A DNA stretch of 64,000 bases from Sphingomonas changnyeongensis (lineage in GTDB: Bacteria > Pseudomonadota > Alphaproteobacteria > Sphingomonadales > Sphingomonadaceae). The number at the start of each line of letters is the position of its first letter. Position 1 is the first letter of the stretch. Both the position numbers and the translations under genes were made by a program. The notes below the pieces were generated by a model. That model searched no databases, had not been told where the DNA came from, and was given only the letters and a program-made list of their open reading frames with translations. The stretch is from the NCBI RefSeq assembly GCF_009913435.1, contig NZ_CP047895.1, forward strand, positions 2,240,501 to 2,304,500, given 5' to 3'. This document shows positions 7,511 through 27,198 of the stretch, piece by piece.

Positions 7511-7525
7511 CCGGCAGCTGCGTTT

Positions 7526-7551
7526 CCCGGCCGGGCACAGGCCCGGCCGGG
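7526..7551. terminator. Bidirectional hairpin between convergent genes
   Basis: A perfect 11-bp stem (CCCGGCCGGGC / GCCCGGCCGGG) with a 4-base loop sits between the stops of the Lrp gene and the convergent TPR gene. There is no T tract on either side, so it is a likely intrinsic hairpin serving both genes, not a canonical rho-independent terminator. Confidence 0.6.
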
Positions 7552-7561
7552 GCTGCATGGC

Positions 7562-8848: not shown

Positions 8849-9010
8849 GATCTCCTCCAGAACCCTGTTCGCCGGGTTTCCCCCGTCTCGGGCGGATCGA
8901 TACCGTCCCGCCGCACCGCGAACAAGCAGCCACTTTCGCCCCCCGCCTGACCGCCGCGCAATGAACCTTGCTTGAACCCGGGGCCAAGCTTGGCTAACCG
9001 CACGCCCACG

Positions 9011-9766: not shown

Positions 9767-10446
9767 GCCGCAGCGCGGTCGTCATCGGCGCGCGCGGCGG
9801 CATTGGCGGCGCGCTGGCGGCGGCGCTGGTCGAGGAAGGCCAGTTTGCAACCGTCCATGCGCTGGCGCGCCCCGACATCGACATCCTCGACGAAGCCAGC
9901 ATCGCTGCAGCAGCGGCACGCGTGGCTGCCGGCCCGCCGCCCGCGCTGGTGATCGTCGCCACCGGCCTGCTGCATTCGGCAACACGCGGGCCGGAAAAAA
10001 GCCTGAAGGAACTCGACGCCGCCTGGCTGACCGAGGTGATCGGCGTCAATGCGATCGGCCCGGCGCTGGTCGCCAAGCATTTCCTGCCGCTGCTGCCGCG
10101 AGGCGAGCGCACGGTGTTCGCCGCGCTGTCGGCGCGGGTGGGCAGCATTTCCGACAACCGGCTGGGCGGCTGGTATGGCTACCGCGCCGGCAAGGCGGCG
10201 CTCAACCAGCTGATCCGCACGCTGTCGGTTGAGATGAAGCGGCTGAACGACCGCGCGATCGTGATCGGCTTGCATCCGGGCACGGTCGACACCCGCCTGT
10301 CGCAGCCGTTCCAGAAGAATGTCGCCCCCGGCCAGCTGTTCGACGCGGAGCGCGCCGCCGTCCAGCTGCTCGACGTGATCGAGGGGCTGGGCGTCAAGGA
10401 CAGCGGCAATCTGATCGCCTGGGACGGGGTGACGATCACGCCCTAA
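9763..10446 (+). CDS. Short-chain dehydrogenase/reductase (CsgA/C-factor type)
   Basis: A 227-residue SDR. The N-terminal cofactor loop is VVIGARGGIGGALAAAL, a variant of the Gly-rich motif that fits NAD(P). The catalytic Ser lies in FAALSARVGS and the Tyr-x3-Lys in GWYGYRAGKAALNQ. The C-terminus carries LHPGTVDTRLSQPF, typical of the C-factor-like SDR subgroup. The substrate is unknown. It starts inside the yaaA stop (ATGA), suggesting a two-gene operon; a functional link to peroxide stress is not established. Confidence 0.85.
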   Translation: MSRSAVVIGARGGIGGALAAALVEEGQFATVHALARPDIDILDEASIAAAAARVAAGPPPALVIVATGLLHSATRGPEKSLKELDAAWLTEVIGVNAIGPALVAKHFLPLLPRGERTVFAALSARVGSISDNRLGGWYGYRAGKAALNQLIRTLSVEMKRLNDRAIVIGLHPGTVDTRLSQPFQKNVAPGQLFDAERAAVQLLDVIEGLGVKDSGNLIAWDGVTITP

Positions 10447-10622
10447 GCGCGCGCGCCGGCCTATGGCCGGGGCGGACCGGCCGGGGCTGACGGGACAAGC
10501 CTGTGGATAAGCCTGTGGGCCGGGTGCCGGCGGCGGCCTCAGGGACGGCGCGGGGGTGGCGTTCCCCCGCCACAGCCGCTAAGCCCAAGGGCAGGTTCCA
10601 CCATTTTTGAAAGCGCAACGCC

Positions 10623-13370
10623 TTGAGCAGCGACGACACCGTCATCGCCGAACCGTCCGACATTCGACCGATCAGCATCGTCGATGAAATGAAGTCGAGC
10701 TATCTCGACTATGCGATGTCGGTGATCGTGGCCCGTGCGCTGCCCGATGTGCGCGACGGGCTGAAGCCCGTTCACCGCCGCATCCTCTATGCCTGCCAGG
10801 AAGCGGGCTATGTCGCGGGCAAGCCTTATCGCAAGTGCAGCCGCATCGTCGGCGACGTCATGGGTAAATATCACCCGCATGGCGACGCCGCGATCTACCT
10901 GACCCTCGCGCGCATGGCGCAGGACTGGTCGATGCGGGTGACGCTGATCGACGGCCAGGGCAATTTCGGGTCGATGGACCCCGATGAACCGGCGGCGATG
11001 CGCTATACCGAAGCGCGTCTCGCCAAAGTCGCGGGCAGCCTGCTTGAGGATCTCGACAAGGACACCGTCGATTTCCAGCCCAACTATGACGCGTCGGAAC
11101 GCGAGCCGCAGGTGCTGCCGGCGCGGTTCCCGAACCTGCTCGTCAACGGCGCGGGCGGCATCGCGGTCGGCATGGCGACCAACATTCCGCCGCACAATCT
11201 GGGCGAGGTCATCCGCGCCTGCCTTGCCTATATCGACAATCCGGCGATCAGCCTGGAAGAGCTGATGGCGATCGTGCCGGGGCCGGATTTCCCGACCGGG
11301 GCGATCATCCTTGGTCAGGCGGGGGCGCGCGCCGCCTATCAGCAGGGTCGCGGGTCGGTCATCGTCCGGTCGCGCCACGAGATCGAGGAAGGCCGGGGCG
11401 ACCGGCGCTCGATCGTGCTCACCGAAATTCCCTATCAGCAGGGCAAGAATGCGCTGGTCGAGCGGATCGCCGAAGCAGCCAAGGACAAGCGGATCGAGGG
11501 CATTGCCGACATCCGCGACGAATCCAACCGCATGGGCGTGCGCATCGTCATCGACCTGAAGCGCGACGCGACGCCCGAAGTGGTACTCAACCAGCTGTGG
11601 CGGCACACCCCGGCGCAGCAGAGCTTTGCCGCCAACATGCTCGCCATTCGCGGCGGCCGGCCCGAGCTGCTGACGCTGCGCGAGATCATCCAGAGCTTCA
11701 TCCAGTTCCGCGAGGAGGTGATCACCCGCCGCTCGAAGTTCGAACTGGCAAAGGCGCGCGAACGTGCGCACCTGTTGCTCGGCCTTGTCATCGCGGTCAC
11801 CAATCTTGACGAGGTGGTGCGGATCATCCGTGGTTCGGCCAGCCCCGCCGAGGCGCGCGCCGCGCTTCTCGCGCGCGACTGGCCGGTCGCTGAAATCGCC
11901 CCCTATATCCGGCTGGTCGAGGCGATCGACCATGAGGTGGAGGGCGACACCTACCGCATGTCCGAAGCGCAGGTGCGCGCGATCCTCGATCTGCGCCTGC
12001 ACCGTCTGACCGCGCTCGGCCGCGACGAGATCGGCGACGAGCTGAAGCAGCTCGCCGCCAATATCGGCGAGCTGCTGGCGATCCTCGCCGACCGGGTGAA
12101 GCTCTATGCGGTGATGCGCACCGAGCTGGAAGCGGTCGCCGCCGAGTTCGCGACGCCGCGCCGCACGCAGATCGCCCCCGCCGCCGACGGCATCGAGGAC
12201 GAGGACCTGATCGAGCGCGAGGACATGGTCGTCACCGTGACCCTGGGCGGCTATATCAAGCGCACGCCGCTCGATGCGTTCCGCGCCCAGAAGCGCGGCG
12301 GCAAGGGCCGGGCCGGCATGGCCACCAAGGACGAGGATGCGATCACCAACCTGTTCGTCACCTCGACGCACACGCCGGTGCTGTTCTTCTCCAATCTCGG
12401 CCGGGTGTACCGGATGAAGGTGTGGCGCCTGCCCGAAGGCGGGCCGAGCACGCGCGGGCGGCCGATGATCAACCTGCTGCCGCTGGCAGAGGGCGAGACG
12501 ATCGCCACCGTGCTGCCGCTGCCGGAGGACGAGGCCGAATGGGGCCGGCTGCACGTGATGTTCGCGACCGCGCGGGGCAGCGTGCGCCGCAACAGCATGG
12601 ATGCGTTCGCCAACATCCCGTCCAACGGCAAGATCGCGATGAAGTTCGAGGGCGAGGACGCCGATGACCGGCTGATCGGTGTCGCGCTGCTCGAGGAAGG
12701 CGATGACGTGCTGCTGGCGACCCAGTCCGGCAAGGCGATCCGCTTTGCCGCCGACGAGGTGCGCGAGTTCCAGAGCCGGTCGTCGACCGGGGTGCGCGGC
12801 ATCACGCTCAAACCCGGCGACGAGGTGATGTCGCTGTCGACGCTGCACCGCGTCGGCGTGGCCGATCAGGACGAGCGCGAGGATTATCTGCGCCACGCGC
12901 CGTGGAAGGGCGAAGACCCCGACCGCGCGCCGCGGCGGATGGACGATGCGCGCTATGCCGAACTGGTCGCGCGCGAACAGTTCGTGCTCACCGTCTGCGC
13001 CAATGGCTATGGCAAGCTGTCGAGCGCCTATGAATATCGGCGCACCGGCCGCGGCGGCCAGGGTATCGTCAACATCGACAATATCGAACGCAACGGCCCG
13101 GTGGTCGCCAGCTTCCCGGCCACGACCGCGCACCAGATCATCCTGGTGACCGATCAGGCGAAGATGATCCGCATCCCGCTCGACAGCCTCAGGGTGATCG
13201 GGCGCGGCAGCGCCGGCGTCAGGCTGTTCGACGTCGCCGCCGACGAACATGTGGTCGGCGCGGCGCGGATCGAGGAAAGCGACGAGCCGGAAGACACCGC
13301 AGACGCGGGTGCTGCCGAAGGCGCCGCCGGACCGGACGGGGCGCAGGACGGGACGGGCGGCGACGCGTGA
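10623..13370 (+). CDS. gyrA: DNA gyrase subunit A
   Basis: A 915-residue type II topoisomerase A subunit: breakage-reunion domain with the catalytic Tyr in [12 protein letters not shown], then a C-terminal beta-pinwheel with the GyrA box variant QKRGGKG (about residue 558), which separates it from ParC. TTG 10623 is chosen because an in-frame TGA lies 15 bases upstream (10608) and the next ATG would delete conserved residues. The quinolone-determining region reads [17 protein letters not shown]: Ala at residue 89 and Leu at residue 93 stand where E. coli has Ser83 and Asp87. The C-terminal tail is acidic, as in many gyrases. It works with GyrB, not in this window, to introduce negative supercoils. 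Confidence 0.95.
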
Positions 13371-14350
13371 TGCGGCGCCGCAGCACCGCCCCGGCAGGGC
13401 TTGCCGCCCTGATGCCGGCAGTGCTGCTGCTTCTCGCCGCGCCGCTGCGGGCGCAGACGCCGGCACCGGCGGCACCAGCACAGGCAGCCCCGGCCCCAGC
13501 CGACGACATCATCGTGTCCGCCCGGCTGTCGGGCGCACCAATCTGGACCGCGACCCGCGACGGGCGCAGGCTGGTGCTGGTCGGCGCGCTGGAGCCGGTG
13601 CCCAAGGGGCTGGACTGGAATGTCGTGCCGCTCGAACAGGCGGCGGCCCGCGCGGACCGGGTGCTCTATCCGGTCAGCGCGTCCTTTTCGGTCGGCGATG
13701 TGTTCCGCCTGCTGTTTCGCGGCGGCAAGATCACCGATCTGCCCAAAGGCCGGACGATCGCGGACTATCTGCCCCCGCCGCTGATGGCCCGGCTGGAACG
13801 GGTGATGGCGGCGGAAAAATCGGATGAATGGCGCCGCAAAAGCCCCGTCATCCTCGCCTTCCGCCTGCTTGGCCGCCATGCCGGGCTGGCGCGCGGCGGA
13901 CGGTCGATCCGCGACGTCGTGGCCGATTCCGCCCGCCGCGCGGGCGTGCCGGGGCGCAGCATCGGCACGGTGCGCGGCAAAGAGGTGATCGACAATCTGA
14001 TGGCGCAGGATCCGGCCGCCTATCGCGACTGCATGGCCGCGAGCATCGCGGCGGCCGAGGCCGGGCGTGACGCCGCCGCTGACCGCGCCGATGCCTGGCG
14101 CGCGCGCGACATCCCTGCCCTGCTTGCCGATCCGCTCGACACCGCGCTCAGCCGCTGCTGGCCCTGGGCGGATCCGGCCATCGGTCCAAGGCTCAAGCGC
14201 AACTGGACCGACGCGCTCGACACCGCGCTGGCCGCCCCTGGCACGACCCTGGCCGTGGCACCTGCCCGGCTTGCCGCCGAACCGGGGGGGCTGCTCGACC
14301 GGCTGGCAGCTGCAGGCTATGCGGTCGACGGGCCGCGCTGGCGCGACTGA
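13370..14350 (+). CDS. Exported TraB/GumN-family protein
   Basis: A 326-residue protein with a Sec signal peptide (LAALMPAVLLLLAAPLRAQ, cleavage near residue 29) and an Ala/Pro spacer. The body has TraB/GumN features: GAPIWTATRDGRRLVLVGAL at the N-terminus, a central GRTIADYLPPPLMARLE, and a helical second half. Distant relatives include GumN of xanthan clusters and TraB/TIKI metalloprotease-like proteins, but the Gly-x-x-His motifs of TIKI are not clear here. ATG 13370 shares its A with the gyrA stop, so it is probably translated with gyrA. The function is unknown. Confidence 0.7.
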   Translation: MRRRSTAPAGLAALMPAVLLLLAAPLRAQTPAPAAPAQAAPAPADDIIVSARLSGAPIWTATRDGRRLVLVGALEPVPKGLDWNVVPLEQAAARADRVLYPVSASFSVGDVFRLLFRGGKITDLPKGRTIADYLPPPLMARLERVMAAEKSDEWRRKSPVILAFRLLGRHAGLARGGRSIRDVVADSARRAGVPGRSIGTVRGKEVIDNLMAQDPAAYRDCMAASIAAAEAGRDAAADRADAWRARDIPALLADPLDTALSRCWPWADPAIGPRLKRNWTDALDTALAAPGTTLAVAPARLAAEPGGLLDRLAAAGYAVDGPRWRD

Positions 14351-14369
14351 CGCGGGCCGGGCCGGCCGG

Positions 14370-15050
14370 TCAGCCCAGCTTGCGGCCCACCCAGACGACG
14401 CGGCCGATGATGTTGATGTCTTCAGCCGGGCAGTCCGGCCAGGACGGATAGGCGGGATTGTCGCTGCGCACGGCAACGCGGCCGCCGACCGGGTTGAGCG
14501 CCAGCCGCTTGACCATCAGCGCATCTTCGAGCCTGAGCACATAGACGCCGTCGCGCAGGCGCTCGGCCCCGTCGCTGCGGTCGATCATGATGTCGTCGCC
14601 GTCCGCCAGCGTCGGCTGCATCGAATCTCCCTGCACGCGGATGATCGACAGCCGCTCGGCCGGCGCGCGCGTCAGCCGGCGCAGCCAGGCGCGGTCGAAG
14701 CTCATCGGATACAGCGGCTGTTCGCGGTCGATCACCGCCCCCGCCCCTGCCGATGCCCCGATATCGAGCCGGGCGATGGGCAGCAGCCGTTCGGCACCGG
14801 TTTGCATCGCGCCGCTGGCATCGGCCGCGCCCAGCACCGTCTCGCTGACGCCGAAATAACGGGCGAGCGTGCGGCGATCATCGCCGTCCAGCTTGCGCGG
14901 CACGCCGCGCTTGATGAACTGCTGGATATAGGCGGCGTTGCGGCCGATCAGGCGGGAAATGCCGGCATAGTCCTCGCCACGGGAGCGGATCAGGCGGTCC
15001 AGCTCGGCACGCGGATCAATGCTGGTCATATCCTCATCTATCATAGGCAT
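14370..15050 (-). CDS. XRE/S24 LexA-like transcriptional regulator
   Basis: About 226 residues. The N-terminal half is a helix-turn-helix (YAGISRLIGRNAAYIQQFIK); the C-terminal half is a Peptidase S24/LexA-like domain with the catalytic Ser in IIRVQGDSMQPTLADGDDIM and the Lys in ALMVKRLAL. An Ala-Gly pair in ASAGAGAVID could be the self-cleavage site. Such proteins are phage-repressor-like, and some respond to RecA. In sphingomonads a chromosomal copy of this kind is common. The start is uncertain: ATG 15050, 15044 and 15029 are all in frame, and 15029 gives the most typical N-terminus (MTSIDPRAELDRLI). It is divergent from the TonB receptor gene. Confidence 0.75.
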   Translation of the reverse strand: MPMIDEDMTSIDPRAELDRLIRSRGEDYAGISRLIGRNAAYIQQFIKRGVPRKLDGDDRRTLARYFGVSETVLGAADASGAMQTGAERLLPIARLDIGASAGAGAVIDREQPLYPMSFDRAWLRRLTRAPAERLSIIRVQGDSMQPTLADGDDIMIDRSDGAERLRDGVYVLRLEDALMVKRLALNPVGGRVAVRSDNPAYPSWPDCPAEDINIIGRVVWVGRKLG

Positions 15051-15400
15051 TACCCTATACCAACAGGGTTTTGACGATCCATGCCCTGATCGGGGGACCG
15101 CGCGCACATGCCGGGGAGTCGCGCCCAGAATAGCCATTTTGCGCACCTCTGTCCGCCTGTCGCGTCCAGAGTCGAGCCATTCGCGCCCCGCCTCCGCCGG
15201 TCGGTGCCGGATCCGATCTTTCTGCCGTGCCGGTGCCGCCCGACCCACAAATGGTTAACCGAACGTCCAGTGTGACTGCGATGTCACAATATTGGTTAAA
15301 CTTACCGCTTCCGCATTCTGAATCGCCCCCGCGCCCCCGGCGCCGCTCCCCGCCTTTCTATGATGCCAGGAGTTTTGACAGCCTGAGGCAGGATTTTGGA
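15051..15400. other. Intergenic region between divergent S24 regulator and TonB receptor genes
   Basis: About 350 bases without a supported gene; it must hold both divergent promoters. It contains the dyad at 15271-15288 and two copies of TGGTTAA (around 15252 and 15293) flanking that dyad. No riboswitch-like structure, such as a cobalamin box, was seen. AT content rises near 15285-15310, where a promoter for the receptor is likely. Confidence 0.5.
15271..15288. promoter_or_regulatory. Palindromic operator upstream of TonB receptor
   Basis: TGTGAC and GTCACA form a perfect 6-bp dyad around a 6-base spacer, about 115 bases before the receptor start. The half-sites resemble CRP/FNR-family TGTGA/TCACA, but the spacing between those pentamers is 8 instead of 6. 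The regulator is unknown; the divergently encoded S24-type protein is another candidate. Confidence 0.4.
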
Positions 15401-17914
15401 ATGAAGACGACGGTTTGGTTGGCATCGGTGGCAATCGGCTCGCTCATGGTGCCGGTCACGGGTGCCCTGGCGGCGGCCGACACGGCATTAGCCCACAGCG
15501 AGGCTTCCGAAGCTGCGGAGCCGCAGGATGCCAAGAATGCGCCGCCGGCCGAGATTTTCTCCACCGGCGTTGCCAAGGGCCGCGACCGGCTGGACAGCGC
15601 CACCTCGACCAGCTCGCTGCGCGCGACCGAGATCGAGAAGTTCGGCGCCCGTTCGCTCGCCGAAGTGTTCCGCAACATCCCCGGCATCCGCGCCGAAGCG
15701 ATCGGCGAGGGCCTGGGCAACTACACGATCCGCGGCCTGCCGCTCGCCTCGAGCGGTTCGAAGTGGCTCAACTTCCAGGAAGACGGCCTTCCGGTCGTCG
15801 AGTTTGGCGACCTTAATCTGTTGACGCCTGACTCGCTGATGCGCTTCGACCTCAATGTCGGCCAGATCGAGACCATCCGTGGCGGTTCGGCCTCGACCTT
15901 CGCGTCCAACTCGCCGGGCGGGGTGATCAACCTCATCTCCAAGACCGGCGATGTCGAAGGCGGCGCGCTGCAGGCCTCGACCGGCATCGACTATCAGGAT
16001 TACCGCGTCGACTTCTCCTATGGCGCGCGCCTCAGCGAAACCGTCCGCTTCCATGTCGGCGGCTATTACCGCGAGGGCGAAGGCCCGCGTGACAATGGCT
16101 TCACCGCCTATCGCGGCGGCCAGATCAAGTTCAACATCACCAAGGACCTGCCGACCGGCTATATCCGCCTGTACGGTAAGTATCTGAGCGACCGCACCCC
16201 GCTTTACCAGGGCGTGCCGATCGCGGTGACCGGCACCAACGAGGATCCGCGCTATTCGAACGTCGCGGGCTTCGACGCGTCGCGCGACGTGCTCCAGGGT
16301 CGCAACATCAGCAACTATGTGATCCCGAACGGCCAGAACAACCTCACCCGGTTCGACGCGCGCCAGGGCATCAACCCGACCGTCAAGTCGATCGGCCTTG
16401 AGGCGCAGTTCGACGTCGGCGACTGGACCATCACCGAACGCTTCCGTTATTCCGACATCGGCGGCAGCGTGCAGATCGCTCTGCCGCTGGCGACGGCGCC
16501 GGCCCCGCTGCTGATGGGCGCACTCGGCGCGCCGGGGGGCCGCCTGCGCTATGCCAATGGCGACCGCGCCGGCCAGCTGGTCGCAAACCCCGCGACGATC
16601 AACGGCAACGGCCTGCTGGTCAACAACATGCTCTTCAACACCCAGATGAAGAACATGGACAACATCACCAACGACCTGCGCGCCAGCCGCGTGTGGAAGG
16701 CCGGTGCTGGAGAGCTGACAACGACCGTTGGTCTCTACACGTCGCGCCAGTCGGTGTTCAACGACTTCCTGGGTTCGAGCATCATCAATGATGTGCGTGG
16801 CGGTGGCAACACGGCGCTGGTCGACCTGATCACCGCCGGCGGAACCCAGCTGACCCAGGGCGGTTTCTTCAACTTCAACGGCACGGTCGCGGCAAGCTTT
16901 GATGCGGACTATCAGGTCCTCGCGCCCTATGCCTCGGTCAACTACAAGGTCGGCAAGTTCTCGTTCGGCGGCAGTGTCCGCTTCGATCGCGGCAATGTCG
17001 AGGGCCAGGCCTTTGGCTACACGATCGGTGCGACCAACCTGCCGACCCGCCCCGTCGACATCAACCGCGACGGGACGATTTCGCCGGCCGAAACCCGCAC
17101 CACGCGGTTTGACTTCAATGCCCCGTCGCTGGTCGACTATAACTACAACTATGTCAGCTATTCGGCGAGCGTGAACTACCGCGCGTCGGACTCGCTGGCT
17201 GCCTTTGCCCGCTACAGCCGCGGTGGCCGTGCGGCGGCTGACCGCATCCTGCTGACCCCGGCGATCAATCCGGTGACCGGCCGACTGGCGGCGGGCGAGG
17301 ACGGCTATGACGCCGTCACCCAGACCGAGCTGGGCCTGAAGTTCCGCAAGTCGAACGTCACGCTGAACGTCACCGGCTTCCTTGCCGACACCAGCGAGAG
17401 CAACCTGCAGGTGACCTCGAACGCGGCAGGCGACACCATCGCGGTGCTGCTTGCCCGCGATTACCGGGCCTATGGTCTGGAGTTTGAAGGTGCGGTCACC
17501 TTCGGCGGGTTCAGCCTGACGGCCGGTGCCACCTACACTAAGGCGGAAATCCGCGCCGACCGCACCCAGCCGCAGTTCGTCGGCAACACCCCGCGCCGTC
17601 AGCCGCACCTGATCTTCCAGGCGACGCCGCAGTACAGCACCGATCTGTTCACGGTCGGCGTCAATGTGGTCGGTCACACCGACAGCTACACCCAGGACCA
17701 GAACCAGCTGCGCCTGCCGGGCTTCACCATCGTGAGCCCCTTCCTGCAGGTGCGGCCGGCCGACCGGGTGACGGTGATGCTCAACGTCAACAATGTGTTC
17801 GACACCATGGGCATCGTCGAAATCTCGCAGGGCGCGCTACCGGCCACCGGCGTCGTGACCGGGCGAACGATCAACCCGCGCACCGTCTCGGCCGCGGTCC
17901 GGTTCAACTTCTGA
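15401..17914 (+). CDS. TonB-dependent outer-membrane receptor
   Basis: An 837-residue receptor with a Sec signal (LASVAIGSLMVPVTGALAA), plug domain (EVFRNIPGIRAEAIGEGLGN, IRGLPLASSGS, then IETIRGGSASTFASNSPGG near residues 165-185) and a 22-strand-type barrel ending VRFNF with terminal Phe. The start is ATG 15401. Plug and barrel are complete, so it should import a large ligand across the outer membrane using TonB-ExbBD (not in the window). The gene is followed by a strong terminator and then by genes for a TbpB-like lipoprotein and a Slam protein, which suggests it is the transport half of a receptor/lipoprotein pair. The ligand cannot be read from the sequence. Its 3' end is duplicated as a relic at 26304. 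Confidence 0.92.
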   Translation: MKTTVWLASVAIGSLMVPVTGALAAADTALAHSEASEAAEPQDAKNAPPAEIFSTGVAKGRDRLDSATSTSSLRATEIEKFGARSLAEVFRNIPGIRAEAIGEGLGNYTIRGLPLASSGSKWLNFQEDGLPVVEFGDLNLLTPDSLMRFDLNVGQIETIRGGSASTFASNSPGGVINLISKTGDVEGGALQASTGIDYQDYRVDFSYGARLSETVRFHVGGYYREGEGPRDNGFTAYRGGQIKFNITKDLPTGYIRLYGKYLSDRTPLYQGVPIAVTGTNEDPRYSNVAGFDASRDVLQGRNISNYVIPNGQNNLTRFDARQGINPTVKSIGLEAQFDVGDWTITERFRYSDIGGSVQIALPLATAPAPLLMGALGAPGGRLRYANGDRAGQLVANPATINGNGLLVNNMLFNTQMKNMDNITNDLRASRVWKAGAGELTTTVGLYTSRQSVFNDFLGSSIINDVRGGGNTALVDLITAGGTQLTQGGFFNFNGTVAASFDADYQVLAPYASVNYKVGKFSFGGSVRFDRGNVEGQAFGYTIGATNLPTRPVDINRDGTISPAETRTTRFDFNAPSLVDYNYNYVSYSASVNYRASDSLAAFARYSRGGRAAADRILLTPAINPVTGRLAAGEDGYDAVTQTELGLKFRKSNVTLNVTGFLADTSESNLQVTSNAAGDTIAVLLARDYRAYGLEFEGAVTFGGFSLTAGATYTKAEIRADRTQPQFVGNTPRRQPHLIFQATPQYSTDLFTVGVNVVGHTDSYTQDQNQLRLPGFTIVSPFLQVRPADRVTVMLNVNNVFDTMGIVEISQGALPATGVVTGRTINPRTVSAAVRFNF

Positions 17915-17996
17915 GGAACGCCGTCCCGGTCGGGGCATAACGCCCAGGCCGAACGAAGAATGCGCGGGCCGCCACGGCGCGGCCCGCGTTTTTTTT
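17850..17996. repeat. Dispersed duplication, copy 1: 3' end of TonB receptor gene plus terminator
   Basis: The last roughly 20 codons of the receptor gene, its stop and the following terminator hairpin recur at 26304-26444. The match includes 42 identical bases at 17888-17929 against 26342-26383. Copy 1 is the functional one, with an intact frame and T tract. Confidence 0.85.
17963..17996 (+). terminator. Rho-independent terminator after TonB receptor gene
   Basis: A 9-bp G+C stem (CGCGGGCCG / CGGCCCGCG) with an 8-base loop is followed directly by eight Ts (17989-17996). This is a canonical intrinsic terminator and separates the receptor transcript from the lipoprotein gene. The remaining bases 17997-18222 hold no recognised feature and probably carry the promoter of the lipoprotein gene. 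Confidence 0.88.
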
Positions 17997-18222
17997 GAGG
18001 AAGGCCCGGAGTGGCACCGCATGACGCGCTGCCGCCGGGGCCATAACACCGATCTTCCCCAAACCGAGCCACCGGACCGAAGCGCCAAAACCCCGCGAGA
18101 TCGCCCAACTCGCTTGAGACTGGTTCCAAAATGGTCGCTTTTTCTGTGCGTTGACCGCCAATCCGGACGTTGATTGAAGCGCGGGAGATTGCCATGACCG
18201 CCGCAAACACAAGGGGGCGTAA

Positions 18223-21200
18223 ATGCGCAGCGTTTCGGTCGCATCGGTTATTGCTAGTCTGTTTACCCTGGCGGCGTGCGGGGGTGGCGGTGGCGGGTCG
18301 GGTGTCAACCCTACGCCCGCGCCCCCGGTTGCGTCGCCCTCACCCAGTCCGAGCCCCGCCCCGGCACCAAGTCCTGCGCCAGCCCCGGCACCAAGTCCTG
18401 CGCCAGCCCCGGCACCAAGCCCTGCGCCCGCACCGGCGCCAAGCCCTGCGCCCGCACCGAGCCCGGCGCCGGCAGCGCCGCCACTCAACAACACATCCCT
18501 TGCCCCGATCCTGTTGTCCGACACCTTTCCGGCTGAAGCGTCGCGGGTGACGGCAACCTATTCTGCGGGCGGCATTGTCGCTGCCAACCGGCCGACGGCA
18601 CCCGTGCCTTTGTCGGTCCAATACGATGCCTCGGCCCGCAGCTATGCGATCCTTTCGGGCCAGGATACGCTTGCGACGCTGCAGACACAGGGTTCGGGCG
18701 CCATCGACGGCAACCCGATCTTCGACGTGTTTCGCGCGATCGGCGGCCTTGTGACCAGCACATTGAGCCTCACGCGAACGGGCGAGACCAGCCGTTACGG
18801 CACCCGCTTCGTGGCCGGCGGCACCCTGCAGAACAGCGAACCATTTGCCGGATCGACTCTCAACCAGCTGACGAGTTTCGTATTCGGCCTGCGAACAGCG
18901 GAGGCTGAGGTGCCGCGCACGGGCAGTGCGAGCTTCGGTGTCGGCCTCCTGGGCGCGCTGACCGGGTTGAATGACTTTCAGCCCATCACCGGCAGCGGGC
19001 TGCTGACACTCGATTTCAGCACCGGCCGCACCACCGGCAATGGTGTCGCATCAACCCGTTTCGCAACCTTCTCGGGCTTTTCATCCCCCAGCTATTTCCG
19101 GTGGTCGACAAACGGCAACTTCTCGGTGGCATCGAACAGGCTGCAGGGAGACATCCAGCTCGAGCTCAATCCGGGATCGCCTTTGCCGGGAACGATCGAA
19201 GGCCGGCTGTTCGGCCCGTCGGGCAGCGAGCTGGGGGCGTCGTTCAGCGCCGGCTTCGGCCAGCAGATGGCGGCAGGCACATTGACCGGCACGCGCGGCA
19301 CAGCCGCGCCGGCATTTGAAACGCTTGCAACGCTGCTATCGAACACCAGTCTGCAGCAGTTGGAGACGGAGGTTCTTTACGACGCGTCGGCAACTGCCGG
19401 GCGGTTCACGGCCACTGGCGTCCGGCCGATATCACAAAGCGAAATCCGCATCCGCACGCTTGGCCCAGACGCGCAGGCGATCGAAATGTTCGCAAACCCG
19501 CTGACGCCGGCAACACGGGTCGATGCACTGTCGGACCCGCTGTTCGTCGCCTATCGCAACACCGGCACAACCTTCCCCACCGTCCGAACGACGCGGCTTT
19601 ATCGTTACATGACGCCGAACCCGGAACTGGCGCTGACCTACTCGACGTTCGCCATGACCGAAATGGACCTGGGCAACCAGTTCATTGACTATACGACGGT
19701 TTTCGGGCTCGCAACCGGGTTCGTTAATGCACCGCGTAGTGGCAGCGGCGTCTATCAGGGCGTGCTTCATGGCACCGCTGTTGGTGCCGGTCCGGATGGC
19801 GACAGGTTCAGCCTGCAGGGTAGCGCCCGGCTTGAGTTCGACTGGCAGGCGCAGACGATCGGTGGGCGGCTTTCGCCGGTCGCCACCAACCTGCGCACCA
19901 GAACCGCAACGCCGCTCGGCGACTTTACGCTGCGCGGTTCAACCCCGTTCCTGTCGGCTTCGTTCGATGCGGTCATCAGCGGACAGCCAGGTGCTGCGGG
20001 TCGGCTGAAGGGCGCGTTCTACGGCCCCAATGCCGAAGAGGCCACGGGTGCGTTCTCGCTGTTCACGCCGGGCGCGGGCACCGTGCTCGCAGCGCAGGGC
20101 GCGGTCGCGACCCGGCTGATTTCAACCGGCCCGTCATCGGGGCAGCCGGTGGGAACACCGCCACCCCGGGTTCCGCTGACCGAGCCATGGCCGACACCGC
20201 TCAATCCCGGCCTCGACAACCTGACGGCGAGCGAGACCTTCCTGGCCGATGCAAGACGGGCGAGTCTCTTCTACCCCTTCTCCGGAACCAGCGCTCTGAC
20301 TTCGGAGGAAGGGCAACTTACCGTCAGCTTCGATGCGGCAACGGGCAGCTACACGGTATCGTCGCCCGGCTCCCCTGCCCTGCCGGCAGCCAGCGAGACC
20401 TTCGCACCCGCGACGCGCGACATTGCCGCCAGCAACTCTGGCACGACCATTTTCCGGACCGCCAACGGTAGCACGCGCAACGAACTTAGGCTGAGCGTGG
20501 CGGGCGCCCAGGGCCTGATCGGAACCCGCCATGTTGGTGGGGGCATCTGGCGCCAGATCGACACTCAGGGCGGTATCGAACGCAACACGCTGCACGGGTT
20601 CACCTTTGGCTATCGCACCCCGAATGTCGACATCCCCCGAGCCACGGCGGCCGATTTTGCAATCGCGATCGAAGCACTGCAGCCGATGCAGGACGGACTG
20701 CGCCTGCTGAACGGCACCGGCATGCTCCGCATCGACTGGGCATCGGGACAGATGGTCGGTGTCGGGACCTCAATCGTCCGGGGTGAACTTGACAATGGAG
20801 CACCCCGCGCAACGTTGGCGGGCTTCACGCTGGAGGGGCGCACGACGTCGATCAATCTTTTTCAGACGTCGCTGAGCATCCGGAATGTATCGTCGGCCTT
20901 CGGCCAAGGCTATTTCTATGGCCCGGGCGGCAGCGAACTGGGGAGCGCGCTGACCTTTGGTACGGGAGGTGCACCGGGAACGGTGTTCAGCGGCTATCTG
21001 ATCGGCGCGCGCGGAACCAGCGCACCGCCGCCCGAGACGCTCGCCCGACTGCGCGATGCGGCCAGCCTGGACAGCCAGAGCGCCGGGATCGACTATGTGC
21101 GCGGCACGGGCAGTCCGACGACGGTCGGCCAGGCGTCGACCGTGCTGGATAGCGGCCGGGTCCGGTTGTTCCCCGGAACCGGCATCACCCAGTTCTCCCA

Positions 21201-21852
21201 ACGCGATCTGCCGGCCGCAGCAGCAACCGAAGTCGGCCCGTCCAGCCGCGTGGCGGCGGAAAGCGATGCCCGCTTCACCACCTATCGCGTCACCGGCGGC
21301 AACGGGGTCACCACCTGGCGGGTCTATAACAGCGGTGCGGGCAATGATCAGCTTGCGCTGAGCTATGCCAGCTTCGCCCAGATGGAGTTTGCGGGAACGA
21401 ACGGCGCGGCTGCGGACCGGTCGATCATGTTCGGCCTCGGCACACCGCTCGATCGCATTCCGCGCACGGGCAGCGCGACCTATAACGGGGTCGTCCACGG
21501 CACCGCCGCAGGGCTTGGTGCCGCAGGGCAAGACCGCTTCCTGCTGGCCGGAACCGGGCGGCTGGAGGTTGACTGGGCATCATTCGGCTTCGGGGCCACG
21601 CTGAACCTGAGCGCGACGAACCTGCGCACGAACACAAACGTCACCATGGATCCGCTGATCGTCAATAACGGGTCAATATCGGGCGGCAGCCTGTCGGGTA
21701 TGTTTGGCGGCATATATTCGGGCGATTTCCGGGGCGCATTCTTCGGGCCCGATGCCAACGAGGCGGCGGCACATATGCGGTTCACGTCCACCCCGGCGGG
21801 GACGCTGCCGGGCCTGGCCGGCCAGGCCGCCTTTGTGGGCCGGCGGCAGTAA
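18223..21852 (+). CDS. Giant four-lobed TbpB-like, Slam-dependent surface lipoprotein (predicted)
   Basis: A 1209-residue lipoprotein. The lipobox LAAC places the lipidated Cys at residue 19, followed by a Gly tract and a Pro/Ala/Ser spacer to about residue 87 (PAPAPSPA repeats). The rest is beta-rich with four modules, each ending in an x-(F/Y)-GPxxxE-type barrel hairpin: RLFGPSGSELGAS (about 327), GAFYGPNAEEATG (about 597), GYFYGPGGSELGS (about 895) and GAFFGPDANEAAA (about 1171). That motif is the hallmark of the beta-barrels of TbpB and related Slam-dependent lipoproteins. TbpB has two such lobes; here a two-lobe unit (about 95-645) seems duplicated (about 665-1209). The gene lies 6 bases upstream of a Slam-like gene. 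Surface display and ligand capture are inferred. Confidence 0.8.
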   Translation: MRSVSVASVIASLFTLAACGGGGGGSGVNPTPAPPVASPSPSPSPAPAPSPAPAPAPSPAPAPAPSPAPAPAPSPAPAPSPAPAAPPLNNTSLAPILLSDTFPAEASRVTATYSAGGIVAANRPTAPVPLSVQYDASARSYAILSGQDTLATLQTQGSGAIDGNPIFDVFRAIGGLVTSTLSLTRTGETSRYGTRFVAGGTLQNSEPFAGSTLNQLTSFVFGLRTAEAEVPRTGSASFGVGLLGALTGLNDFQPITGSGLLTLDFSTGRTTGNGVASTRFATFSGFSSPSYFRWSTNGNFSVASNRLQGDIQLELNPGSPLPGTIEGRLFGPSGSELGASFSAGFGQQMAAGTLTGTRGTAAPAFETLATLLSNTSLQQLETEVLYDASATAGRFTATGVRPISQSEIRIRTLGPDAQAIEMFANPLTPATRVDALSDPLFVAYRNTGTTFPTVRTTRLYRYMTPNPELALTYSTFAMTEMDLGNQFIDYTTVFGLATGFVNAPRSGSGVYQGVLHGTAVGAGPDGDRFSLQGSARLEFDWQAQTIGGRLSPVATNLRTRTATPLGDFTLRGSTPFLSASFDAVISGQPGAAGRLKGAFYGPNAEEATGAFSLFTPGAGTVLAAQGAVATRLISTGPSSGQPVGTPPPRVPLTEPWPTPLNPGLDNLTASETFLADARRASLFYPFSGTSALTSEEGQLTVSFDAATGSYTVSSPGSPALPAASETFAPATRDIAASNSGTTIFRTANGSTRNELRLSVAGAQGLIGTRHVGGGIWRQIDTQGGIERNTLHGFTFGYRTPNVDIPRATAADFAIAIEALQPMQDGLRLLNGTGMLRIDWASGQMVGVGTSIVRGELDNGAPRATLAGFTLEGRTTSINLFQTSLSIRNVSSAFGQGYFYGPGGSELGSALTFGTGGAPGTVFSGYLIGARGTSAPPPETLARLRDAASLDSQSAGIDYVRGTGSPTTVGQASTVLDSGRVRLFPGTGITQFSQRDLPAAAATEVGPSSRVAAESDARFTTYRVTGGNGVTTWRVYNSGAGNDQLALSYASFAQMEFAGTNGAAADRSIMFGLGTPLDRIPRTGSATYNGVVHGTAAGLGAAGQDRFLLAGTGRLEVDWASFGFGATLNLSATNLRTNTNVTMDPLIVNNGSISGGSLSGMFGGIYSGDFRGAFFGPDANEAAAHMRFTSTPAGTLPGLAGQAAFVGRRQ
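18358..18478 (+). repeat. 24-bp tandem repeat encoding the Pro/Ala/Ser stalk
   Basis: About five near-copies of a 24-base unit (CCCCGGCACCAAG followed by TCCTGCGCCAG, with a few substitutions) encode eight-residue units of the type PAPAPSPA. The first two full units are identical and later ones diverge. The unit length is a multiple of three, so slippage would lengthen or shorten the stalk without breaking the frame. Confidence 0.85.
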
Positions 21853-21858
21853 ACCCGC

Positions 21859-23169
21859 ATGCCAGGCTGGTTAGCGGCAGCGGCCTTCGCCGCCACCCAA
21901 AGCATGCCGGTCGCACCGGCGGCTGAACTGACGGGCCTCAACCCGGCCCAGCTGTTCGCGCTGGCGGAACGCGCCCGCGCGAATGGCCGGCCACGTGACG
22001 CGCAAACCCTGCTCGAAGCACTCACGACCGATCCTGACCCGGAAATCCGCGCGGAGGCGCGGTTCCGGCTTGCCGGGCTGCTGGAAGCGCAGGGCCGACG
22101 CGCCGAGGCGGCGACGCTGCTCCGCCGGATCCTTGATGAAAAACCTGACGCTGCGCGCGTGCGGGTGGAGCTCGCGCGGCTGTTGACGGCGATGGGTGAC
22201 ACCGGTGCGGCCGCGCGTGAACTGCGCCAGGCGCAGGCCGCCGGCCTGCCACCCGACATTGCCCGCATCGTCGATCAGTTCCGCACCGCGCTGCGCTCGC
22301 GCGCGCCGATCGGTGCCACTTTCGAGATTGCGATTGCGCCTGACAGCAACGTCAACCGGGCCACCGGTCGTCAGACGCTCGACACCGGACTGTTCCCGAT
22401 CGAACTGAGCCCGGATGCCCGCGCCCGCTCCGGCATCGGTGTTGCGCCGTCGGGCCAGCTTTATCTGCGCCTGCCACTGTCGTCGCGCCTGAGCGTGCTT
22501 CCCCGCCTGAGTGGCAGCGCGCGGCTCTATGAGGAGGACAGTTTCAACGACATTCAGATCGAACCCAAAATCGGGCTCGAACACCAAGGCGCCGATGGCA
22601 GCCGTGTAACCCTGTCGGGCGGCCATGACTGGCGCTGGTTCGGCGGCTCCATCTTTTCACGTGCCCGCAGCGTGACGATCGACTGGCTGCGCCCGATCGG
22701 CCGCCGCGGGCAACTGACCGCGAGCGCCGGGACCAGCTGGGCACGCTTTCCGCGCAACAGCGGCCAGGACGGCACCGGCCATCAGATCTCGGCAACCTAT
22801 GAGTTCGCGGTCAGCGCACGCGCCGGGGCTGCGCTGACCCTGAGCGGCGCACGGCAGGAAGCCCGGGATCCGGGATTCGCAAGCTGGTCCGGCGGCCTGT
22901 CGGCCCTCTATTTCCACCAGCTCGGCCGGGCGAGCCTGTTCGGATCGGCTGCCATCCGCCGGCTGGCGGGCGACGGCCCGCTGTTCATTTTCCCGCAGCC
23001 CCGGCGCGAATGGTTCCTGCGCGGGGTGGTCGGCGGCACGTTCCGCCAGCTGAGCGTGCGCGGCTTTGCCCCCGTCGTCCGTGTCGTGGCAGAACGCAAC
23101 ATCTCGACAGTCGGCTTGTTCGATTATCGCCGACTGGCGGTCGAGGCCGGCCTGAGCCGCACATTCTGA
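21859..23169 (+). CDS. Slam-type surface lipoprotein assembly modifier (TPR plus DUF560 barrel)
   Basis: A 436-residue outer-membrane protein. A short signal peptide (WLAAAAFAATQSMPVAPAA) precedes about 120 residues of TPR helices (LFALAERARANGRPRDAQTL, RVRVELARLLTAMGDTGAA). From about residue 150 a 14-strand-type barrel starts with FEIAIAPDSNVNRATGRQTL, a Slam/DUF560 signature in style, and ends in SRTF with terminal Phe. Slam proteins translocate lipoproteins carrying TbpB-like barrels to the cell surface in Neisseria and other proteobacteria. ATG 21859 follows the lipoprotein stop by 6 bases, so the two genes are co-transcribed and very likely partners. The assignment is by architecture and context. 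Confidence 0.85.
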   Translation: MPGWLAAAAFAATQSMPVAPAAELTGLNPAQLFALAERARANGRPRDAQTLLEALTTDPDPEIRAEARFRLAGLLEAQGRRAEAATLLRRILDEKPDAARVRVELARLLTAMGDTGAAARELRQAQAAGLPPDIARIVDQFRTALRSRAPIGATFEIAIAPDSNVNRATGRQTLDTGLFPIELSPDARARSGIGVAPSGQLYLRLPLSSRLSVLPRLSGSARLYEEDSFNDIQIEPKIGLEHQGADGSRVTLSGGHDWRWFGGSIFSRARSVTIDWLRPIGRRGQLTASAGTSWARFPRNSGQDGTGHQISATYEFAVSARAGAALTLSGARQEARDPGFASWSGGLSALYFHQLGRASLFGSAAIRRLAGDGPLFIFPQPRREWFLRGVVGGTFRQLSVRGFAPVVRVVAERNISTVGLFDYRRLAVEAGLSRTF

Positions 23170-23226: not shown

Positions 23227-26177
23227 CTAGGCCGCTTTCACGCCGGTATCGTCCGCGCCGCGCGAGAGCTGGCGCGAATAGACCCAGCCAATGCCGATCA
23301 GGCTGAAGCCGAGCGCCATGAAGCTGGCGATCCGCAGCAGGCCCTCGAGCCTTGCAGCGTCGATCAGAAACACCTTGATCACCGCCACCAGCATCAGCAC
23401 CAGCGAGCCGATCCGCCAGCTGCGCGACGCGCGCAACGATCCCCACCAAAGGAAGCCAAGCGCCAGCAGGATCCCGATCAGCGAAATCAGCAGACTTTCG
23501 GTCGGCCCGATGCCGTGCGCGGTCAGCACAGATCCGGCGAAGGCCTGCCGGAGGAGCGAGAAAGCGAGCAGCGTAATCAGCACCATTGCCGCCGCATCGC
23601 CTGCGGTCCGGGCGGCGGGAGGCGCGTCATCCCATTGCCGGTGCCCGATCCGGAGCGCGACGATCGCGGCCAGATAGGCCGGGGGCAGCCAGTTAACGAT
23701 TGGGATCGGGCCGACATGCTGGAGTGCCCATAGCGGATTGTGGAGGAACAGGGTGAACATCGCGAAATGCGCCAGCGCCGCTGTCGCAAGCCCCAGGCTG
23801 ACGGGGCGTCGCAGCCCTGCCGGCAGGCTCCGTCCGGCGGCATAGGCCCCCGCGACCAGCAGGGCCTGCCAGATGCTGCGTTCGCCCATGCCATGGTCCT
23901 CGAACTGGACCGGCGAGGTGATGGCAAAGATCTGCTTGTAGAGGCTGTGGAGCGCGATCATGCCGGGAACCGCCAGTCCGGCCAATCCATGCGCGCGGAG
24001 GTTGGCCGGCAGATCCCGCCCCTTTGTCAGCAGCATCGCCAGCGCCACAACCAGCGGCGCGACACGCAGCACGATATCGAGCGGCTTGACGGCCGAGGTC
24101 ACCATGAACGGGGCACCAGTGAGCGCCATGATCCCGCCAGTCGCCCATCCGATCAGCGGCTCCAGGCTCCAGATGGCCGTGATGGCGAGCGCGGTCCCCC
24201 ATGCCGCCACGCGCTGCGGGACGACGACGAACAGTCCACTGGCGAAGATTGCGGCGATCCACGCCAGTGCCGCGCTCGGCAGCAGCTGCGCGGCAAGGCC
24301 GTAGCCGAGCGCCACGGCCAGCGTTTCTCCGACCGACCGTGACAGTGCGGGGCGGGAGAGGCGCGCCTTCGCGGCAAAGATCGTGCCCGCCGCCGCCCAT
24401 CGCAGGCCGGCGCGCAGCATGTCCACGGGCTCGGCAAGGTTGCCAAGCTGGGACAGCTCCACACTGAAATCGGGCGTCACGGCCAGCGCGGTCAGCGCCA
24501 TCGCCGCCCCCAGCCAGGCCGCCGCATGCAGCGCCGGCGCATCGCGGCGCGCCTCGCACCACAGCAGCGGACCAGTTGCTAAGAGTGCCATCGCCGGGGC
24601 CAGCCACGCGGGGGTGACGAGCAGCAGCGCACCGAACGCGAGCATCACCGCCGGGACGAGCACGGTCAGCACCGTGCGCGTCTCGCCTTCCTGCCCGCGG
24701 CGCCACATCAGCATGAAGGCTGTCGCCGGAATGACCGCCAGCACCGCAACGGTGGCCGCGAGCAGCGGCGCGAAATCATCAGCCTGCCCGAAGCCGAACC
24801 GGCCATAGATGGCCAGCGCCATGACCAGCGAGACCAATGACAGCTGCGCCAGATCGAGCGGCTGCGCGCGCCCACGCACATGGTGCGCGAGCGGGACGCC
24901 GGCGAAAATCGCCACCTGCGCAAAGGCGACCAGCGCGAAGAATCCGTCGTCGGGATCGGGCCAGACGAACAGCAGCCACAGCCCCAGCCCGGCGGTCACC
25001 AGCGTCCCCGGTCGCAGCGCCTCGAACCGCCACCCCAGTGCGGTCAGCGCCGCGCCGATCAGCAGGTAAAGCCCCAGGTGAGCGGCGCAAAGCCCGCATC
25101 GCTGACCATCACTGCCATCTGCAGGGTCGCGATCCCGCCCGCCGCGAGCTGGGGGAGCGTGGGGCCGCCGCGCGACTGGAGAAAGGCCGGCAGCACTGCG
25201 CCCAGCACCACCAGATAGATCCCCAGCGCCGCGAGGTCCGACGTGCTGGAAACGCCCGCGACCATCATCAGCACGCCCCAGCCAAGGCCGGCCGCGAGCG
25301 CCGCATAACTCATCCAGCGTTGCCGCTGGCGCGCGCCGGTCCATGTCAGTCCGCCCGTGATCAGCGCGAGGTAGAAGGAGAGCAGCGGCACATTGCCGCT
25401 GTCGCTTTCGACCAGCAGTGGGGCAGCAAAGCCCCCGACCAGCCCGATCACCGCGCTCGGCAGGCCAAATCGGAACGAGAGCCCGATCGCCGCTATCGTC
25501 ACGCCGCCAAGGCCGAGAAATGCCGGCCCCGCACCGATCAGGCCATAGGTCGTGCCCGCAAGATAGAAGGCACCGTAAAGCGTCGCCAGCCCCGCCCCCG
25601 CGAGCGCCTGCCTGACTCGCGGATCGGCAAGCCGTGCATCAAGACGGAAGGCGGCCTCCGCCGCTGCAAGCAGACCGAGGCCGAAGACGAAGCTCATCGC
25701 CACCCGCACCGGCGGGGTCAGCAATCCTGCCTCGATCGAGAAACGGACGAGGAATATGCCGGCGATTGCCAGTGCGAAGCCGCCGCCCCAGATCGGGAGT
25801 CGGCGTCCGAATATGTCCTCGAAATCGAAGGTGAAGCCACCGGCCGGTGCTTCCGGAAGCGCTTCGTCGAGCGCGGCAGCGGCAATGGGGGCGCTCGCTA
25901 CCGGTTCCGGGGCTGCAGGCTCGGACGGGCGGCTCTCGCTCGGGGCCGGACCGGGCACGCTCGCTGGTGGCATTGGGGCTTGCTTGGCCCATGGCGCGGA
26001 CGGCGCTTCGGCGGCTGCCCTGATCTGGTGGATGTCGTCCTGCTCCGGCGCGCGGAGTGCATCGCGCAGATTCTCGAGCTCAAGCGAAAGGCGGGAAACG
26101 CGCTGTTGCAGCCTGTCGATCCGCAGCCACGCGGCTCCGATCAGGCCGACAATCAGAAGAGTGATGAAAATGCCCAT
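23227..26177 (-). pseudogene. DUF2339 multi-spanning membrane protein, one-base frameshift
   Basis: The N-terminal frame runs from 26177 to 25059 and the C-terminal frame from about 25075 to 23227. They join at the G4 run (plus-strand C4 at 25072-25075), where one more G gives a continuous LTWGLYLLIGAAL and a protein of about 983 residues. The N-terminus has one membrane helix (GIFITLLIVGLIGAAWL), a coiled coil and a Pro/Ala-rich linker, then more than twenty hydrophobic helices. DUF2339 proteins are large inner-membrane proteins of unknown function. ATG 26177 follows GGGGGG on the coding strand. Uninterrupted frames elsewhere suggest a sequencing under-call instead of decay. It is convergent with the Slam gene. 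Confidence 0.8.
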
Positions 26178-26303
26178 GATCCCCCCGGCCCTCATCGCCA
26201 AGCTTCAAACGCTTTGCAATCACGAGATCGGCTGGCGGGGCACGGGGACGCGTTCCCGATTGTCGGAGATACCCGTAATGCTCCCCGCGCGGCAATCACT
26301 GGG

Positions 26304-26444
26304 GCGTCATCGCCGGGTGAACGATCAACCCGCGAACCGTTTCGGCCGCGGTCCGGTTCAACTTCTGAGGAACGCCGTCCCGGCCGGGGCATGACGCCCC
26401 GGCCGGGCTCATCAATGCGCGGGCCGCCAACTGTCCCGGCCCGC
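26304..26444 (+). pseudogene. Relic of the 3' end of a TonB receptor gene (duplication copy 2)
   Basis: The sequence repeats the end of the receptor gene at 15401-17914: GVIAG, then a TGA in place of the Arg codon, then TINPRTVSAAVRFNF and stop. It continues into the downstream flank and the terminator stem (GCGGGCCG / CGGCCCGC at 26419-26444) but lacks the T tract. Differences from copy 1 within the coding part are mostly third-base changes, so the copy derives from a once-coding paralogue. Nothing upstream of it matches the receptor. Confidence 0.85.
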
Positions 26445-26673: not shown

Positions 26674-27198
26674 ATGAAAATCAGACATGTCTTGATGAGT
26701 GCGATTGCGCTGGGTTCGGCAGCCTTGTCGGCACCCGCATCGGCCGCCGTTATTTATGATTGGTCGGGCTCATCGACAGGCGGCGGCGTCCGCATGGAAG
26801 CCTCTTTTTCATTTCAGAGTGATAGCCCGCTTGGCGACGAGCAGATCCTCAATCTCAGCACGGCAAATTGCGTGTTCCGCCTGAATGGTTCCAATGTTGG
26901 GTGCGCACGCATCATCATGGGGCGTTCGTTCGGTGTGAACTTGAACTCCATCAGTGTCATGGCAAACCCGGTTGGCATCGTTGCCTTCTCGATCAACAGC
27001 GGATTTACGCTGGCATCGCTTGACACCACCGGGTCTTATCAGTCGATCAACGGCAGCCCTTCGACCCTGACGGTGACCAACACCGCTCCCGCTGTGCCGG
27101 AACCTGCGACCTGGGCCATGCTTATTGTCGGCTTCGGCCTGATCGGTGGCACGCTGCGTCAACCGAAAGCCTCGACCGCAGCGACATCGCACGCGTAA
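26674..27198 (+). CDS. PEP-CTERM sorting-domain protein
   Basis: A 174-residue secreted protein: Sec signal (MSAIALGSAALSAPASA), a beta-rich body with one likely disulfide (ANCVFRLNGSNVGCARI), and a C-terminal PEP-CTERM tail (VPEPATWAMLIVGFGLIGG followed by Arg). The PEP motif, hydrophobic segment and basic cluster are processed by exosortase, linking the protein to the outer surface or exopolysaccharide matrix. No exosortase gene is in the window. The tail after the basic residue is unusually long (about ten residues). It is a monocistronic gene with its own terminator. Confidence 0.88.
   Translation: MKIRHVLMSAIALGSAALSAPASAAVIYDWSGSSTGGGVRMEASFSFQSDSPLGDEQILNLSTANCVFRLNGSNVGCARIIMGRSFGVNLNSISVMANPVGIVAFSINSGFTLASLDTTGSYQSINGSPSTLTVTNTAPAVPEPATWAMLIVGFGLIGGTLRQPKASTAATSHA

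Follow-up and report, generated by a model that had tools for sequence, protein, structure and literature searches.

All seven experimentally verified exporters of the type XI secretion system (T11SS, also TXISS) lie in its animal-associated cluster 1, according to a 2025 study (PMC12282271). DUF560 proteins largely of environmental Sphingomonadaceae make up TXISS subcluster 1C of a 2021 survey, in which no member had been characterised at publication (PMC8406197). The 2025 study also describes 'Sphingomonas surface proteins', which have two to three TbpB-type handle-barrel pairs, a Pro-Thr N-terminus and co-occurring DUF560 genes (PMC12282271). The sphingomonad setting of such pairs of cargo and exporter is already known from both papers. 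Here we describe a gene pair of this known kind, larger than its published members, in 64,000 nucleotides of the Sphingomonas changnyeongensis genome (NZ_CP047895.1, positions 2,240,501 to 2,304,500; hereafter the window). It consists of a gene for a four-lobed lipoprotein (18223-21852) and, 6 bp behind its stop, a gene for a protein of the Slam (surface lipoprotein assembly modifier) type (21859-23169). With a probability of about 0.8, we read the two as a cargo-exporter pair of type XI secretion that is carried by an 8.45-kb block and is independent of the TonB-dependent receptor encoded in front of it (15401-17914). The initial annotation had joined all three genes into one nutrient-capture system; its TbpB-type lipoprotein and its Slam/DUF560 protein stand, and the membership of the receptor does not.

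The exporter shares with TXISS subcluster 1C both the DUF560 family and the environmental Sphingomonadaceae type (PMC8406197), and would belong to that subcluster. The lipoprotein resembles the 'Sphingomonas surface proteins' in its several TbpB-type handle-barrel pairs, its Pro-rich N-terminus and the accompanying DUF560 gene, but has four copies in the order N-C-N-C instead of two to three, and a Pro/Ala/Ser stalk without Pro-Thr repeats. On the published description (PMC12282271), they are its closest relative, and it is not a member of them. A TPR-plus-barrel exporter, TbpB-type lobes and a lipoprotein cargo are also found in the Neisseria system of Slam, TbpB and TonB receptor; the window differs by four lobes versus two, by the lack of any cognate receptor found and by a host that, to judge from its relatives, is environmental. 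Hemophilin with its exporter HrpC (TXISS-1B) has a barrel of the same family and a DUF560 exporter as well, but is soluble, with one barrel domain and with TonB and a TonB receptor in its locus (PMC8406197). Neither a four-lobed cargo nor the lobe order turned up in the titles and abstract beginnings of the library searched.

Several lines of evidence identify the lipoprotein. The four GPxxxE-type motifs noticed initially (residues 331, 601, 900 and 1175) each go with a lobe in a profile search, where the four lobes score alike, each at 3.9e-43 or better, with a profile that was seeded from the same protein. Pfam TbpB_B_D (PF01298), which is independent of this profile, matches at 50.4 bits (cut-off 26), and because of both results we do not take the motifs for chance occurrences. 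The barrels match TbpB, LbpB, NHBA and fHbp in Foldseek and VIA comparisons; all 50 VIA matches listed are entries of TbpB, LbpB, NHBA, fHbp or HpuA, which does not thereby exclude other families. A profile of related lobes finds TbpB at 3.1e-21 and hemophilin at 2.5e-4, so that the Pfam score, the structure matches and this profile agree on the TbpB-like character that had been proposed. No internal repeat is seen by self-BLAST of the whole protein, but once it is cut at the GPxxxE motifs the lobes fall into two alternating types (Table 1), and the lipoprotein is a tandem duplicate of the usual two-lobed cargo, in which an N-type lobe is followed by a C-type one.

The assignment of the third gene to Slam/DUF560 holds as well. 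Pfam SlipAM (PF04575) scores 27 bits against a cut-off of 22 (27.7 in the genome search), and TPR_19 matches the N-terminus with 49 bits, over its cut-off. Slam proteins are built of a TPR domain and a 14-stranded barrel. An AlphaFold2 model from 22 sequences, with a mean predicted local distance difference test score (pLDDT) of 84.1, has seven helices in residues 29-146 and 14 strands in residues 151-435, and the predicted structure fits this plan. Among 8000 candidates scored, 602 are homologues at E 1e-3 or better, and several named proteins in the top 120 bear the title 'surface lipoprotein assembly modifier'.

That the two genes belong together is supported by their relatives. Genome contigs were searched with the Slam alignment, and of 145 Slam relatives we took the best 80 (by title mostly Sphingomonadales, a few with a class or phylum name only, and one, L043, from Brevundimonas), and counted as cargo any lobe-bearing protein no more than 300 bases from Slam, using a profile grown from the four lobes of the window. 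A lobe protein stands beside Slam in 76 of these 80 loci, upstream in 60 and downstream only in 16. In three of the four remaining loci (L012, L069, L071) the DNA in front of the Slam match is no longer than about 360 bases; the fourth (L084) extends for about 10 kb on either side. Adjacent cargoes in these loci have one to three lobes, against four in the window. The only whole-length relatives found for the lipoprotein (P0123, P0124 and P0125; 50, 50 and 33% identity) align with it end to end and have four lobes each. A second cargo open reading frame (ORF) in L067 also has four lobes in the order N-C-N-C, and may belong to a longer gene that is broken, since it has no lipobox of its own and follows a short lobe-bearing ORF. 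The window lipoprotein therefore has the highest lobe number counted, in common with P0123-P0125 and the possibly broken ORF of L067. Cargo genes can be multiplied too: in L021 (Sphingomonas sp. NFR04, 7422-19184) a three-lobe cargo adjoins Slam and three more two-lobe cargo genes lie downstream.

The order of lobes in the relatives is regular. Lobes were typed by similarity to those of the window (N-type for lobes 1 and 3, C-type for lobes 2 and 4), with a hit for 172 of 180 non-window lobes. In two-lobe proteins the first lobe is N-type in 50 of 51 cases and the second C-type in 51 of 52, the remainder being ties; all 16 three-lobe proteins read N-N-C, and single-lobe proteins are of either type (5 N, 9 C, 3 ties). 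Thus a C-type lobe comes last in all classified multi-lobe relatives except for one tie. From the orders N-C, N-N-C and N-C-N-C we tentatively derive a building rule, which may well prove wrong: N-type lobes would be added in front as an exchangeable payload and a C-type lobe would close the chain and serve as the export address. If the rule is true, the window protein with its two C-type lobes is two cargoes fused into one and travels as a cassette without a receptor, and the recognition signal of Slam can be tested through lobe swapping. Relatives with one, two, three and four lobes form a natural series for finding the part recognised by Slam and the chain length it passes.

The three genes lie in a row on the plus strand, as initially described, and the first of them encodes a TonB-dependent receptor by its Pfam scores (Plug 52.1 bits, TonB barrel 80.4 bits, both over cut-off). 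Their closeness on one strand is an argument for a single system in which the lipoprotein would hand its ligand to this receptor. It can be added that in Neisseria TbpB, LbpB and HpuA each have a TonB receptor as partner, that in one other sphingomonad clade a receptor precedes a one-lobe cargo and Slam by 1.7 to 4.5 kb, and that a TonB receptor gene is present in 120 of 185 Slam clusters (PMC5449769). However, the receptor is split from the lipoprotein by a probable terminator of its own, which the initial annotation had recognised: a hairpin of 11 pairs with a T run, having the most pairs of 10 terminator-like sites in the hairpin scan (6.6 on average in shuffles). It is also not TbpA-like (TIGR01786, 39.1 bits versus a cut-off of 323.75). 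A receptor paralogue, 90% identical, occurs elsewhere in the genome (within C1:1738500-1751500), the congener G149 has the receptor without the pair, and neither a lobe protein nor Slam is found in the stretches of 9.9-15 kb examined round the paralogue and the receptors of G149, G162 and G161. The paralogue adjoins, on its own strand, a gene for a CHASE3-HAMP-MCP chemoreceptor.

The distances in the 80 loci point in the same direction. Only 2 of them have a receptor of at least 450 aa no farther than 0.5 kb from the pair; the number rises to 3 at 1 kb, 12 at 3 kb and 19 at 5 kb. Among receptors that precede the pair on its own strand, the closest is at a distance of 1.7 kb (L061), and in no locus does a receptor immediately precede the pair as it does in the window. 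Receptors were detected by phmmer with 30 receptor queries from the own genome, so very distant ones may have been missed, and some loci are short. With 39 Plug matches in the 3.0 Mb of this genome, the window receptor included, some chance neighbours are expected. Cargo and exporter are thus conserved in other sphingomonads, and the receptor is not conserved with them, an outcome that the initial annotation had itself named as refuting its reading. We reject the receptor at 15401 as a part of the system on the evidence of G149, the stretches round the paralogue and these distances; a transfer of ligand from the lipoprotein to it is very unlikely, and the three-gene nutrient-capture system is not supported. 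Adjacency to a TonB receptor in a single genome does not make a nutrient system.

The pair would work without that receptor. The lipoprotein would be exported by Sec, receive its lipid at Cys19 and reach the outer membrane, where the Slam barrel, probably recognising a C-type lobe, would move it to the surface, and there it would display four lobes on its Pro-rich stalk. Their likeliest use would be to bind a protein or a heme-type ligand multivalently, or to mediate adhesion. An adhesin or binding array for cells, plants, polysaccharide or matrix is a possible form of this, though we hold it with considerable doubt: one to four lobes on a Pro-rich stalk and the several cargo genes of some loci (L021, L068) fit multivalent binding, and NHBA is named for heparin binding in its entry title, but lobes are equally expected of ligand-capture proteins. 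fHbp and NHBA, in turn, are not known to be nutrient proteins, and being equally good fold matches they count against a lipoprotein that captures a nutrient and passes it to another TonB receptor encoded elsewhere, as does the scarcity of receptors near the pair. The many Plug matches of the genome would leave room for such a partner, and cargoes of the same fold with known function include co-receptors of TonB uptake and hemophores (PMC8406197); still, we consider such a transfer unlikely.

The cargo-exporter pair shares its 8.45-kb block with a gene for a DUF2339 membrane protein, and a 103-bp direct repeat (91% identity) marks both ends of the block. In G149 a single 9.9-kb contig holds, in this order, the receptor (residues 96-837, as far as the contig reaches, at 97% identity), the 3' repeat region, about 200 unmatched bases and DNA matching the window from 26568. 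The window's 17.97-26.3 kb are missing from this contig, which has no lipoprotein, Slam or DUF2339. In the rest of G149 there is no whole-length match to the lipoprotein and none to DUF2339, and Slam is matched by a single fragment, whose contig shows no blastn alignment with the window. Since the lipoprotein in its whole length and DUF2339 are present in the window's genome only, among six genomes of the genus including this one, a gain in this lineage is favoured, and the pair was probably acquired. The block would have entered the DNA behind the receptor gene, and a single crossover of a circle carrying the receptor end would leave the observed repeat pattern. No integrase is among the five block ORFs scanned with Pfam, no search aimed at integrases having been made. 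Plasmid-borne relatives of the window Slam occur in 9 of 72,556 plasmid records, all less than 60% identical (four from Novosphingobium, three from Sagittula and one each from Ponticoccus and Sulfitobacter; among them NC_015583.1, AP026900.1 and NZ_CP117882.1, with six others). The DUF2339 gene is split by a frameshift or a sequencing error, and neither Pfam scans nor the genus comparison give evidence that it acts with the pair.

It should be noted that several points weigh against this reading of the pair and its block. The structural model of the lipoprotein, built from 4 aligned sequences, has a mean pLDDT of 51.2 and a predicted template modelling score (pTM) of 0.30, and is reliable for parts of the barrels only. 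The protein stays under the cut-off of NCBIfam slam_lipo (NF041636, 64.6 versus 80) and is not classed there. Lobe types in the relatives rest on similarity to the window's own lobes. On the side of the exporter, TPR_Slam is below its cut-off (26.1 versus 35.2), and the sequence profile finds TPR-type proteins only, and no outer-membrane barrel, in PDB. The assembly of G149 comprises 280 contigs at 80% completeness, and the contig in question ends inside the receptor gene; its junction could therefore in principle be an assembly fault and its absences missing data.

Table 1. Features of the locus in window coordinates
Feature	Position	Strand	Basis
TonB-dependent receptor, 837 aa, judged outside the system	15401..17914	+	Pfam Plug, TonB barrel
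Left copy of 103-bp direct repeat: last codons of receptor, stop and following bases	17849..17951	+	
Intrinsic-terminator-like hairpin and T run behind receptor, 11 pairs	17962..17989	+	Hairpin scan
Four-lobed TbpB-type surface lipoprotein (predicted), 1209 aa	18223..21852	+	PF01298; Foldseek and VIA; lobe profile
Lipobox LAAC, presumed acylated Cys19	18268..18279	+	By eye from translation
Pro/Ala/Ser-rich linker (stalk) with 24-bp DNA repeats (D1, D3)	18307..18486	+	Translation; repeat search
Lobe 1, N-type, residues 129-356	18607..19290	+	GPxxxE cuts, lobe profile
Lobe 2, C-type, residues 425-627	19495..20103	+	GPxxxE cuts, lobe profile
Lobe 3, N-type, residues 694-928	20302..21006	+	Lobe 1 is best match within protein
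Lobe 4, C-type, residues 994-1195	21202..21807	+	Lobe 2 is best match within protein
Slam/T11SS outer-membrane protein, 436 aa	21859..23169	+	SlipAM; AlphaFold2
Slam TPR domain, seven helices, residues 29-146	21943..22296	+	Pfam; AlphaFold2
Slam 14-stranded barrel (predicted), residues 151-435	22309..23163	+	AlphaFold2
DUF2339 membrane protein, split over frames 25059-26201 and 23227-25344, which overlap; in block	23227..26201	-	Pfam
Right copy of 103-bp direct repeat, 91% identical; fragment of receptor 3' end	26303..26405	+	

The same genome has a second Slam with a one-lobe cargo (C1:566-569 kb). The stretch with this cargo and Slam is kept in four congeners, whose 15-kb stretches gave no receptor with a set of 30 receptor queries, 14 of which were antisense or other-frame ORFs. 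The second cargo gene (C1:566100-567253; L180:5601-6754) is broken across two frames after a Pro/Ala repeat and its Slam is open; in the four congeners the pieces of the cargo are in one open frame. This break, together with that of the DUF2339 gene, could suggest that the window pair is decaying and non-functional as well. However, the two genes of the window pair keep open frames of 1209 and 436 codons and all four lobes have kept similar scores against the lobe profile, which makes decay highly improbable. In a quick tree of 110 rows the second Slam groups with the four congeners and Sphingomonas flavalba, and the window Slam, surrounded by rows that are mostly of Sphingomonadales, with P0003 and P0004 and further out with Polymorphobacter multimanifer. 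Because of this separate grouping the window pair seems to have come later, from a different line of sphingomonads.

A Slam-dependent nutrient system could hold in another clade (L053, L055, L057, L059, L061 and L066), a better candidate than the window, where Slam is preceded by a receptor, by a CadC-like family of regulators and by one-lobe lipoproteins. In this clade only the genes of L053 have Pfam names, among them a regulator of the Trans_reg_C family, a small barrel of the outer membrane and a TbpB_B_D lipoprotein.

Another group of loci seems at first sight to link sphingomonad Slam cargoes with vitamin B12 uptake. Seven loci from Novosphingobium and Erythrobacteraceae (L065, L067, L068, L080, L081, L082 and L083) have a receptor upstream of Slam, preceded by a cobalamin riboswitch in six of them (the receptor of L081 touches the locus end). 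Three of these receptors were tested (L068, L080, L082), and their best match is a B12 receptor model, below its cut-off in every case; among further genes tested, those of L080 and L081 contain Peripla_BP_2 and that of L068 codes for an ABC ATPase. In several of the seven loci Slam and cargo stand just before uvrA. But the order BtuB-BtuF-BtuD-M13 peptidase-uvrA is kept in 10 of 17 genomes without Slam, so that the pair would have slipped into an older neighbourhood. This control comprised 20 stretches picked by the author, 17 without a Slam match and three from Slam genomes (G019, G126, G012), with G068, which has only a TPR-region match at 3.7e-4, counted among the 17; in the other seven M13 and uvrA were not seen in the stretch. 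Moreover, a cobalamin riboswitch is absent from the window, where the RNA families are two tRNAs and nothing else, and from 15 further loci, and that of the own genome is 0.62 Mb away from the window pair. The B12 link, being positional only, was rejected, and we give it hardly any credence.

Metal regulation was approached with consensus strings for Fur, Zur, Irr and RirA in two upstream regions (12 tests, 200 shuffles each). Upstream of the receptor, 15 and 10 of 200 shuffles do as well as the two best Fur-like matches, which are therefore not convincing. An Irr/ICE-like palindrome at 18114-18130, about 100 bp upstream of the lipoprotein start, scores 12/15 with the consensus and is reached by 0 of 200 shuffles. 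It is not shared by other cargo genes, whose upstream regions reach 11 at best with a distribution that follows the shuffles, and we take this candidate site as a weak lead only. Just past the right repeat a small protein is encoded at 26674-27198, which is also present in G149 and presumably ends in a sequence resembling the PEP-CTERM motif.

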